A stretch of DNA of 64,000 bases from contig JAQCEJ010000001.1 of the NCBI GenBank assembly GCA_027618475.1, positions 62,001-126,000 of the forward strand, given 5' to 3'. The notes under the pieces are model-generated. The model was not told the DNA's origin, ran no database searches, and was given only the letters and a program-made list of their open reading frames with translations. This document shows positions 21,129 through 24,418 of the stretch, piece after piece. Origin of the DNA: Planctomycetota bacterium. GTDB taxonomy: Bacteria > Planctomycetota > Planctomycetia > Planctomycetales > Planctomycetaceae. How positions within the stretch are numbered: position 1 is the first letter of the stretch; every line of letters begins with the position of its first letter. The translations under genes and the position numbers were made by a program.

Positions 21129-23444
21129 ATGCACCACAGGAATCTACGCTGGCTGATCGCCATCCTGATGGTGGTTTCTCCCTGTTCGTTTCTGACGTCG
21201 GGCGAGGGGATCGCCGACGAACGGCCACACGCGCAACAACTTACGCTGTCTCGTCCCGGCACACCGGTGTATGTCGCCATTGTGGGTGCGATTCACCGAC
21301 CCGGAGTTTATCGTTTTGAAAATCGTTCGCCAGACCATCGTAACCCGACGGTCGCCGATCTCGTCGGTAAGGCTGGTTCTCTTACGGCGAATGCGTCGGG
21401 AATCATTCGTATTATTCGCGATCAGAGAAGCGGATTGCAAATCTATTACTCACCGAACAACCCCACTCCGCTGCTCGATAACGATGTCGTGCTGATCGAA
21501 GATCGCTCGTCGGGAACCCATAAGTCGTCGATATCGGTCATGCGTGAGTTTGGCCCCCGGTCACAATCCGACACGAATCAATCGGTATCGAATCGTCAAC
21601 GAATGCCGTCTTCATCGGCGTCAGAAACGGCCCCGCGCGGAACCGGGCCGTCTCAGAAATCGCATATTGTCTGCGTGAATCTGATTGACCGTCCTGTCGT
21701 TTTGCCGCTTCGCGAAAAGCACGCGTCGCTCCCGGCCATTCTGTCGCTTCTCAACCAATCGATGGAACTTTCACCTGAGATCAGGATTATCCAGCCGGGA
21801 AGCCGTCGACCGGATGCCTCCGACCGTTTCAATTCCCGGCAGCAGAACACCGGTGACGAAAACAACGCGTCGGACGTATCACCCCCTGTCGACACCACAT
21901 TTGGTGATGGAACGGTTGTCATCTTTAATCCCTCCTATGTCGATCAGAGCCGAATTCCCGAGCTTCCTCCCGTCATTTCCGCCGCTAACAATACCGAATC
22001 GGCCCCTACGGTACCGTCTACCGCAGCTCCTGATCGACGCGGTGGGAAGACTGATTTGAACAGCGGGGATCGTTCACGACCGAAACCGATTATTAACCCT
22101 TCAGAACCGGCACCATTTCCCGGTGAACCATCCCACAGAGTCGATGCGAGGCCGCTTGGAGATTCCAGAACGTCTCCCAAACCTCGTCTTGTCGAACCTC
22201 TTCCGTCACCGCAACTCTCGGGACCGCAACTCGATTTTTCGGCTGATCGCACCGGCAACGACGAGATCCAGTCCGTCCCTGATTCGGAATCGTATTCGGC
22301 TCGGCAACGGTTTTCCAATCCTGTTCCTCCTGATATTGCTCCTCGTGCTCTGGCCGAGCGTGATGGGTCGGAAAACTCCCGAAAACGATTAACCCAAAAA
22401 TTTGGTGAGACGTTGGACATCCCGGACGCCGCCGTTCCTTATCACCCCGAAACAAACACCGCCGCTCGCAACAACACGAAATCAGGCCGAAAGGATTCGA
22501 TCGCGGCAGAGTTTGCCGACGACGTCCCGGCGACCAATCTGGAATCCGGCAGTTCGACGATGATCTGGGTGTTAACCAGCTTCGGAATCGCCATTCTTCT
22601 CGTCGGTCGTGTTTATTGGATGGTGAAGCCCCGAATCGGTGTCCGACGTGCCGATTCCGTCAGCACATCGATTCCACCGACAACTCCCCCTGAAAAATGT
22701 CCCGTCAAATCGGAGCCGGTAAGGTCGGCAGAAAGCCTACTGACGGCCATTCTCGAAAAACGTTATCCGGTCGTGCACGAACCATTTCCGCTGGGGAGTC
22801 CACTGACTCTCAACGGCCGGCTCGACACCGAACGGCTGCTACGTATCGATTCGAAGCACGGGTTACCGGCTCCGGTCTCTCGATCGCACGGGTTTGCCGC
22901 GTCACAACGAGAAATACCAGACGCAGAACGACCGATATCGATGCCGCCAACCAGCAACAAGGTTTCTTATACGACTCATGCAAGCCATTCTCCTTCAGAA
23001 CCGATCTCGCCGCAACAGGATCGACGCTATGTCGACCCACATCAACGCCGCTCTGATGAGAGCCATGTTTCGGCTGATGCTGCATCGATTCCGGTCGCGG
23101 TTCCTGTCAATCGGCTGGCTCCCACGGATGTCGAACAACGCCAGGAACGAACCATCACACGACTGATACGAATCACCCAGGCCGACAAGCAACAAGCAAG
23201 AACCAGGATGGATAAACGCCGGATGGTGCAACAGAGTAAGCGTCAGAATTCGGTTGGTGTGTCAAGCATGGCACATACATCTCAAGTGCAGCAATTGCAC
23301 GTTGCTTCCGCCACACCGATTCCTTCTCCTCATCTGCAACGGTTAGACGATTCCCAACGATCGCCAATGAATCGTGAGGCGTCGGTTCAAGAAGGACGTC
23401 TCGACCGTGCTCTGGCCCACCTGCAGCGGGAGCGAAAATCATGA
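21129..23444 (+). CDS. SLBB-domain transmembrane protein, partner of actin-fold protein
   Basis: The 771-residue protein starts with an uncleaved or cleaved signal (residues 5-22). Residues 46-127 read as an SLBB beta-grasp domain: VYVAIVGAIHRPGVYRFE, then TVADLVGKAGSLTANASGIIRIIRD and LLDNDVVLIEDR. A second, weaker beta-grasp-like unit may lie at about 176-269 (IVCVNLIDRPVVLPLREK..LPAILSLLNQ..IRIIQPG..DGTVVIFNPS). A long Pro/Ser-rich linker leads to one membrane helix at 478-498 (MIWVLTSFGIAILLVG). The last 270 residues are polar and basic and would be cytoplasmic. SLBB domains are found in polysaccharide export proteins. The stop overlaps the next ATG (ATGA). I recognise the domains but not the protein; its role is unknown. 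Confidence 0.8.
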   Translation: MHHRNLRWLIAILMVVSPCSFLTSGEGIADERPHAQQLTLSRPGTPVYVAIVGAIHRPGVYRFENRSPDHRNPTVADLVGKAGSLTANASGIIRIIRDQRSGLQIYYSPNNPTPLLDNDVVLIEDRSSGTHKSSISVMREFGPRSQSDTNQSVSNRQRMPSSSASETAPRGTGPSQKSHIVCVNLIDRPVVLPLREKHASLPAILSLLNQSMELSPEIRIIQPGSRRPDASDRFNSRQQNTGDENNASDVSPPVDTTFGDGTVVIFNPSYVDQSRIPELPPVISAANNTESAPTVPSTAAPDRRGGKTDLNSGDRSRPKPIINPSEPAPFPGEPSHRVDARPLGDSRTSPKPRLVEPLPSPQLSGPQLDFSADRTGNDEIQSVPDSESYSARQRFSNPVPPDIAPRALAERDGSENSRKRLTQKFGETLDIPDAAVPYHPETNTAARNNTKSGRKDSIAAEFADDVPATNLESGSSTMIWVLTSFGIAILLVGRVYWMVKPRIGVRRADSVSTSIPPTTPPEKCPVKSEPVRSAESLLTAILEKRYPVVHEPFPLGSPLTLNGRLDTERLLRIDSKHGLPAPVSRSHGFAASQREIPDAERPISMPPTSNKVSYTTHASHSPSEPISPQQDRRYVDPHQRRSDESHVSADAASIPVAVPVNRLAPTDVEQRQERTITRLIRITQADKQQARTRMDKRRMVQQSKRQNSVGVSSMAHTSQVQQLHVASATPIPSPHLQRLDDSQRSPMNREASVQEGRLDRALAHLQRERKS

Positions 23445-24418
23445 GTATCGGACTCGATTTGACCTCAACCTGTTTTCGTTCGCTGCGTCCGGAAGGGCAA
23501 ACGCTCGCCGTCCGCAGTTGTCGAGCCGATATCGTCCCGGTCAGCAAGTCTCCCATTCACCGGCAACTGGTCGACCAATTGCAATTAAATTACGCCGAAT
23601 GCGACAGTCACCTTCTCATTTGGGGGGACCAGGCAAATCGGTACGCCGATGCATTTCATTCGTCGAGTCTGCCGCTTCTTGTTGACGGTTGCGTCCCCGA
23701 CAATCAGCCCCCGATCAGGCAAATGCTTGCTTCGCTGATGGAAGGCCTGCTCCCGACGACGCCAACCTCGGGCCGCATCTGCGGTGTGGCATTTTCTCGT
23801 TCGCAGCGGGCAACACGGCAGTCGACCGTCGACTTCTTCACACAGCTCATCAGTCTCAGCGGTTATCGCGTAACCGCTGTTGCTCCTGCACAGGCATTGG
23901 CGCTGGCTGAATTGAGTTCATGCGAATATTCGGGAATCGTATTGCATCTCGGAGCAGCGGTCAGCGATTTCTGCGTCATGCAGCACGGTGCGATCTTGTG
24001 GAAGCAACAACTCGACCTTTACGACTTTCTGCCGGCTGATGTCAACGATGATTATCAATCGGTTTTACTGACATCGGGTTGCGACAATACCGAGACGACC
24101 ACGAATTCCACCGATATGAGCAACGACGTCATGACGCGGTGCCGGGTCATGCAATCGGCGATGGAACATCATTTCGCGGGTCTAGCTGCTGCCGAGGTAT
24201 TCACACCGACGAGCAACGCCGTCCCATTGCTCCTGGGGGGAGAATGTCCGCGTGGTTCCGATGTGATATCGGGGATGCAGCACGATATGGCTTCGCTCAG
24301 CGGGCCGATTCCCATCAGCGAAGTTCGCTGGCCGTTGTTCGGCGACCATGCCGTTGCCCGCGGCTGTCTGATTCATGCCGAACTCGAATCGAAAAGAGCC
24401 CACCCGCAAGCCGCGTGA
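23441..24418 (+). CDS. Divergent actin/MreB-PilM-fold protein
   Basis: The order of motifs over 325 residues is that of actin-like ATPases: phosphate-1 IGLDLTST (3-10); LIWGDQANRYADAF and VDGCVPDNQPPIRQML (59-95), as in MreB VGDEAK and IADF regions; GVAFSRSQRATRQSTVDFF then GYRVTAVAPAQALALAEL; phosphate-2 IVLHLGAAVSDFCVM (166-180); adenosine motif LLLGGECPRGS (263-273); and the terminal GDHAVARGCLIHAE (301-314), like aVArGa in MreB. The phosphate-2 Asp is His and the Gly-Gly-Gly is degraded, so catalysis may be lost. The gene is coupled by ATGA to a membrane protein with a cytoplasmic tail. This suggests a membrane-linked scaffold similar in principle to PilM-PilN or FtsA. The fold call is by eye. 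Confidence 0.65.
   Translation: MSIGLDLTSTCFRSLRPEGQTLAVRSCRADIVPVSKSPIHRQLVDQLQLNYAECDSHLLIWGDQANRYADAFHSSSLPLLVDGCVPDNQPPIRQMLASLMEGLLPTTPTSGRICGVAFSRSQRATRQSTVDFFTQLISLSGYRVTAVAPAQALALAELSSCEYSGIVLHLGAAVSDFCVMQHGAILWKQQLDLYDFLPADVNDDYQSVLLTSGCDNTETTTNSTDMSNDVMTRCRVMQSAMEHHFAGLAAAEVFTPTSNAVPLLLGGECPRGSDVISGMQHDMASLSGPIPISEVRWPLFGDHAVARGCLIHAELESKRAHPQAA

Follow-up and report, generated by a model that had tools for sequence, protein, structure and literature searches.

Two genes in a planctomycete genome overlap by four bases, one encoding a membrane protein with periplasmic ligand-binding-type domains and the other a relative of actin, and the question is whether they form a working unit and, if so, what an actin relative would do in it. 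The locus lies in a stretch of 64,000 nucleotides (the window) from Planctomycetota bacterium GCA_027618475.1, contig JAQCEJ010000001.1, positions 62,001-126,000 of the forward strand (GTDB lineage Planctomycetia; Planctomycetales; Planctomycetaceae), and all coordinates given here are window positions. A first-pass annotation had placed the two genes, here called gene A and gene B, at exactly the positions found again here, including the ATGA sequence common to both. We find that the pair is a real, translationally coupled unit confined to the Planctomycetaceae and that gene B belongs to the volactin family of actin homologues, in a branch that has almost entirely lost its catalytic glutamate. 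The reading to which we lean, with somewhat more confidence than doubt, is that a bitopic (single-pass) SLBB adaptor recruits a non-hydrolysing volactin to the membrane as a scaffold.

Distribution and linkage of the gene pair

Members of the volactin family were detected in 62 of 149 sampled Planctomycetota genomes and in 50 of 61 Planctomycetaceae genomes, and none was found among 15 sampled genomes from other families of the window's class. The two genes are adjacent and on the same strand in all 47 Planctomycetaceae genomes that carry both on one contig; they overlap by 4 bases in 38 of these genomes and by 1 base in three, and are separated by 39-111 bases in six, so the adjacency on which the first-pass proposal depended is conserved among related genomes. 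The full-length SLBB-transmembrane gene occurs only in the Planctomycetaceae; other families of the class show short matches, mostly to the SLBB domain. Since MreB is encoded in 61/61 Planctomycetaceae genomes, gene B is an additional actin.

A very long branch with strong support sets the Planctomycetaceae volactins apart in the family tree, in which the window copy is the longest tip; placement within the tree is uncertain because of these long branches. The window protein is so diverged that, used alone as a query of the genome contigs, it retrieved no relatives, whereas five related sequences retrieved 200. An alignment of 20 sequences contained no stretch conserved enough for scanning. 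An 864-residue reading frame in genome G022 was considered as a natural fusion of genes A and B and rejected, because its upstream part is open by chance only and the true gene A is read in another frame.

The features of the pair are collected in Table 1. In the window it is flanked upstream by a thiolase gene and downstream by a gene for a DUF1570 protein, both on the minus strand and unrelated to it.

Table 1 Features of the gene pair, with window positions and the evidence for each
Feature	Position	Strand	Evidence
Gene A: SLBB-transmembrane protein, 771 residues (signal peptide, two SLBB domains, disordered linker, membrane helix, cytoplasmic tail)	21129..23444	+	Pfam, alignment, hydropathy, AlphaFold, Foldseek
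Signal peptide hydrophobic core, gene A residues 6-24	21144..21200	+	Hydropathy peak 1.66
SLBB domain 1, gene A residues 46-127	21264..21509	+	PF10531 in orthologues; AlphaFold pLDDT >90; Wza/ComEA fold
SLBB-like domain 2, gene A residues 177-280	21657..21968	+	Alignment of 24 orthologues; AlphaFold; Foldseek Wza match across both domains
Membrane helix, gene A residues 477-495	22557..22613	+	Hydropathy peak 1.87; sole helix after signal peptide
Motif m1a, gene A residues 536-565, consensus LIxNxLPIxEEPxxLPxxLxxHGR, candidate volactin-docking motif; diverged in window	22734..22823	+	Leave-one-out profiles
Motif m1b, gene A residues 566-589, consensus LRxDxxHxLxGPHF	22824..22895	+	Alignment
C-terminal helix motif m2, gene A residues 754-771, consensus GxLDRALxxLQxExKS	23388..23441	+	Alignment
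ATGA overlap of genes A and B	23441..23444	+	4-base overlap in 38/47 genomes
Gene B: volactin-family actin-like protein, 325 residues	23441..24418	+	PF25216, AlphaFold, Foldseek, MamK profile match
Phosphate-2 residue His169 codon, gene B	23945..23947	+	Ser in all volactins outside Planctomycetaceae
C-terminal Ala-Ala of gene B, candidate C-terminal degradation signal	24410..24415	+	Family volactin ends; tmRNA tag ends

Gene B is a volactin that has lost its catalytic residue

Gene B falls in the Pfam family Volactin (PF25216), where it scores 83 bits (cut-off 35; E 3.5e-23), and it is thus a diverged member of a named family and not the unassigned MreB/PilM/FtsA-type protein for which it had been taken. 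The predicted actin fold is clear in its AlphaFold model, based on 42 sequences (predicted local distance difference test score, pLDDT, 87.7; predicted template modelling score 0.87), which matches MreB, crenactin, MamK, PilM and BeeR at a Foldseek probability of 1.00. A phmmer search of the PDB with gene B alone gave nothing useful; only the family profile reached MamK (1e-11) and MreB, together with PilM (0.003), BeeR and FtsA. The volactin of Haloferax volcanii (VolA, HVO_2015), which has the same Pfam family and fold, forms dynamic filaments whose tips touch the membrane, and it affects cell shape and the transition from rod to disk; planctomycetes are not mentioned in the main text of that study (PMC10869688).

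Residues at the nucleotide-binding motifs were counted in 61 volactins from the Planctomycetaceae and 66 from outside the family, with a few genomes that are present in two collections counted twice. The volactin column INE[G/A] aligns with the SEP of MamK, and its glutamate is taken, by this alignment, to correspond to the catalytic E140 of Caulobacter MreB (PMC4051119). Glutamate occupies this column in 66/66 volactins outside the Planctomycetaceae, haloarchaeal and other planctomycete proteins included, and in 1/61 inside, where it is mostly replaced by Ala, Pro, Gln or Ser (Pro in the window). Phosphate-1 Asp6 (54/61), phosphate-1 Gly8 (53/61), the first adenosine-motif Gly (60/61) and, mostly, connect-2 are nevertheless kept within the family. 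Because these residues remain and the glutamate is lost, most members could bind nucleotide and should not be expected to hydrolyse it efficiently.

Erosion has gone further in the window copy than in its relatives. Its phosphate-1 motif lacks Gly8 and reads DLTS, GGxWID is absent and Glu stands in place of the second adenosine-motif Gly, so that of the full order of motifs described in the first-pass annotation the fold has stood and the motifs themselves prove more eroded. This copy may be without any nucleotide binding. The glutamate, the phosphate-1 DxGT and GGDWID are kept by essentially all volactins outside the Planctomycetaceae, and the window protein lacks all three; judged by these motifs it was classed as a diverged homologue and not as a working volactin. 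The histidine at phosphate-2, which had been read as a replacement of Asp and a mark of degeneracy, cannot serve as such a mark: this residue is Ser, not Asp, in 66/66 outside volactins, haloarchaeal ones among them, and the window His therefore replaces Ser.

One alternative is that gene B is still a dynamic filament driven by adenosine triphosphate (ATP), like the Haloferax protein, which gene A would nucleate or anchor to the membrane. The dynamic, membrane-touching and shape-affecting filaments of Haloferax (PMC10869688) are consistent with this, as are the mostly retained phosphate-1 Asp/Gly and connect-2 of the Planctomycetaceae proteins and the fact that the closest solved sequence is that of a filament former, MamK. 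The catalytic glutamate is, however, missing in 60/61 Planctomycetaceae volactins, and the window copy, on the longest branch of the tree, has neither the phosphate-1 Gly nor GGxWID. We consider this alternative unlikely, and the loss of the glutamate is the reason for preferring a scaffold to a dynamic filament.

Gene A carries two SLBB domains outside the membrane

Hydropathy supports the signal peptide and the lone membrane helix that had been proposed for gene A (Table 1). The SLBB-like domain proposed for its periplasmic part is below the Pfam threshold in the window protein (15.4-18.3 bits, under the cut-off of 27 for PF10531), but among the orthologues Pfam SLBB was matched in 22/29 (best 5.9e-10) and SLBB_2 in 21/29. 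A second beta-grasp unit, previously suggested as a possibility, was also found: the AlphaFold model of residues 26-290 contains two such units, both with pLDDT >90, and has the fold of the SLBB domains of Wza. Foldseek placed Wza first among PDB matches (E 9.8e-6), aligned over both units, followed by ComEA and GfcC. The relative placement of the two domains is probably not fixed, which would explain the low template modelling score (0.26) across both; single-domain matches cover about 90 columns and superpose at 2.4-3.5 angstroms.

This likeness raises the possibility that gene A is a Wza-like polysaccharide export protein and gene B a linked regulator of export. Apart from the Wza match over both domains, a weak NCBIfam EpsE match in one gene A orthologue would agree with such a function. 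We regard it as very unlikely, since Pfam detects no polysaccharide export domain, no export genes were recognised beside the pair, the long disordered linker and cytoplasmic tail of gene A are lacking in export proteins, and short separate SLBB matches exist elsewhere in many of the Planctomycetaceae genomes.

A candidate docking motif in the cytoplasmic tail

The cytoplasmic tail of gene A comprises about 273 residues, close to the 270 described earlier, and its net charge of +13 in the window agrees with the description of it as basic. Basicity is not a family feature, however, and was dropped as a defining character of gene A, because net charge ranges from -30 to +18 among orthologues. 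Apart from three short blocks, m1a, m1b and m2, the tail is mostly unconserved.

Six Planctomycetaceae genomes, from five genera, carry gene A without a volactin on a contig that continues past the gene. In leave-one-out profile searches, m1a was recognised in 45/47 volactin-positive and 0/6 volactin-negative genomes; m1b and m2 each persist in 3/6 of the latter. The disappearance of m1a along with volactin, when m1b and m2 survive in half of these genomes, suggests that gene B docks at m1a, a role proposed here from sequence comparison. As a separate observation, the SLBB-transmembrane gene of genome G197 (locus L208, G197:C13) showed one in-frame TGA in the family search.

Several points weigh against the scaffold-and-adaptor reading. 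The joint loss of m1a and volactin amounts to five independent pairs, just one of them on well-supported branches, and these are too few for significance when common descent is taken into account. Genome G207 has a volactin and no m1a, and the window's own m1a is the most diverged copy. Gene A outlives volactin in six genomes and must therefore have some role without it. Finally, the catalytic column holds Gln in 9/61 Planctomycetaceae volactins; eukaryotic actin uses Gln at this position, so not every member need be hydrolysis-dead.

It is also conceivable that the pair is decaying in the window genome, with gene B on its way to loss as in other lineages. Volactin presence and absence on the best tree requires five changes, i.e. 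about five losses in the Planctomycetaceae, and the window volactin has the longest branch and has lost three nucleotide motifs; the window m1a, although visibly aligned, is not recognised by its leave-one-out profile (score -2.1). Yet both frames are intact with an exact overlap, the fold is modelled confidently, and the C-terminal Ala-Ala and connect-2 are kept, which makes decay a rather improbable explanation.

Volactin partners in other lineages

The gene upstream of volactin differs between lineages. In other Planctomycetota classes a coiled-coil gene stands upstream of volactin at nearly every locus, and neither an SLBB-transmembrane nor a coiled-coil partner was found beside archaeal or Omnitrophota volactins. 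The coiled-coil proteins (loci L084-L094 and L112-L165) share the ends RTVKVLD...LIDEAVE (N-terminal) and VEVKxxKAGGVAANLAKLKNLQ (C-terminal); the one that was tested has no Pfam or NCBIfam name. Archaeal volactins (L162-L177) have a multi-pass membrane protein gene upstream in 9/15 loci, and stretches in the tail of that protein such as VAGLKSLRGG recall the C-terminal helices of both bacterial partner types. Omnitrophota loci L153 and L155 appear to have two tandem volactin genes followed by a response-regulator-like gene. At three loci of one planctomycete family (L225, L226 and L231) a long acidic, apparently disordered stretch precedes the volactin domain in the same frame, and no coiled-coil partner is recognisable.

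Most of the long frames that surround other volactins are due either to chance in DNA rich in guanine and cytosine or to a disordered N-terminal extension, and only two contain a fusion with a known domain. In these (L095:1224-4199 and L096:5992-8448, from two other planctomycetes) a full volactin is fused to a PilT/PilU-type ATPase (TIGR01420, E 1.5e-126 in L095). Such natural fusions, the presence of PilM among the structural matches of gene B and the relation of SLBB to the DNA-receptor domain of ComEA could suggest that the pair serves a type IV pilus or competence machinery, with gene B PilM-like and gene A PilN- or FimV-like. We find this improbable. The Planctomycetaceae loci examined showed no recognisable pilus gene next to the pair, the PilM sequence match is far weaker than that to MamK, and gene A differs from PilN in topology, having an N-terminal signal peptide and not an N-terminal cytoplasmic peptide.

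The C-terminal end of gene B

Planctomycetaceae volactins end in Ala-Ala in 42/61 cases and in Val-Ala in 10/61. An Ala-Ala end was found in 5/176 other long frames at the same loci and in 0/66 volactins outside the family. The tags encoded by the transfer-messenger RNA (tmRNA) of Planctomycetaceae genomes end in Ala-Ala or Val-Ala in 26/26 cases (ANEKHYALVA in the window genome), and ClpX recognises a terminal Ala-Ala carboxylate (PMC7652416). The simplest reading is that the volactin end is a candidate built-in degradation signal. Genome-by-genome agreement between the ending of the tmRNA tag and that of volactin was looked for and not found.

Comparison with known systems

Actin homologues with bitopic membrane partners are already known, as is the volactin family itself. 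In RodZ-MreB, too, a single-pass membrane protein is tied to a cytoplasmic actin homologue; unlike RodZ, gene A has a signal peptide, no N-terminal cytoplasmic helix-turn-helix and the opposite domain order, and MreB is separately encoded in the same genomes. If the proposed docking is right, the pair would resemble PilN-PilM, where the bitopic protein uses a short cytoplasmic peptide to bind an actin-fold partner whose ATPase activity is weak or absent, but the PilN peptide is N-terminal and surrounded by pilus genes, neither of which is true of gene A (no shared pilus gene, e.g. pilNOPQ, in the family neighbourhoods). FimV/TspA is likewise bitopic, with a periplasmic envelope-binding domain, a disordered linker, one helix and a cytoplasmic tail; gene A has SLBB in place of LysM, Pfam finds neither LysM nor a FimV C-terminal domain in it, and it has a fixed actin-like neighbour. 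SLBB beta-grasp domains are shared with Wza, GfcC and ComEA, and Wza has two in tandem, but gene A lacks the outer-membrane helix as well as the export domain of Wza and possesses a cytoplasmic tail. The nearest solved sequences to the gene B profile belong to BeeR and to MamK, the latter associated with a magnetosome coiled-coil network. Actin-like proteins of this type work with coiled-coil partners (PMC12748827), as is the case at other planctomycete volactin loci; here the partner differs, and no magnetosome genes were recognised beside the pair.

A paper describing the pairing of an SLBB membrane protein with an actin was not found in the literature searched. As far as that literature shows, the SLBB-membrane partner, the family-wide catalytic loss, the candidate docking motif and the Ala-Ala end are new.

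A model for the pair and its possible role

In the mechanism that we favour, the two Wza-type SLBB domains would lie outside the cytoplasmic membrane, where they would most likely bind or sense a glycan or other envelope component, and the long disordered linker and single helix would lead into the disordered cytoplasmic tail, whose short motif LIxNxLPIxEEP...HGR may dock gene B. Having kept the actin fold and lost the catalytic glutamate, gene B would bind nucleotide (the window copy perhaps not) and, once recruited to the membrane, would act much as PilM or FtsA do, as a scaffold or a filament that polymerises weakly, and not as a dynamic filament driven by ATP; its Ala-Ala end would let a Clp-type protease remove it. 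The first-pass suggestion of a periplasmic beta-grasp domain linked to a cytoplasmic actin thus holds for architecture and adjacency, and physical coupling of the two proteins is something that we infer.

The Planctomycetaceae bud without FtsZ, and mreB, ftsI and ftsW of Planctopirus limnophila can be deleted without a stop in growth (PMC6952346), which makes a role of the pair in budding or envelope shape an attractive possibility. We offer with low confidence the wider conjecture that the pair belongs to the budding or envelope-shaping machinery of these FtsZ-less bacteria as an envelope-sensing adaptor and a hydrolysis-dead actin, the amount of the latter being set by Clp through its Ala-Ala end. 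In this view the place of the adaptor would be taken by a coiled-coil protein in other classes and by a multi-pass one in haloarchaea.

With a second actin relative that nearly the whole family possesses, and that has a membrane partner of its own, there is a concrete candidate for a part of the envelope cytoskeleton of the Planctomycetaceae, and the existence of a tractable species allows such a role to be tested. The family offers a case of an actin that appears to have turned into a pseudo-ATPase across a whole bacterial family while switching its partner. Two predictions follow from it, a short motif for docking and a degradation signal at the C terminus.

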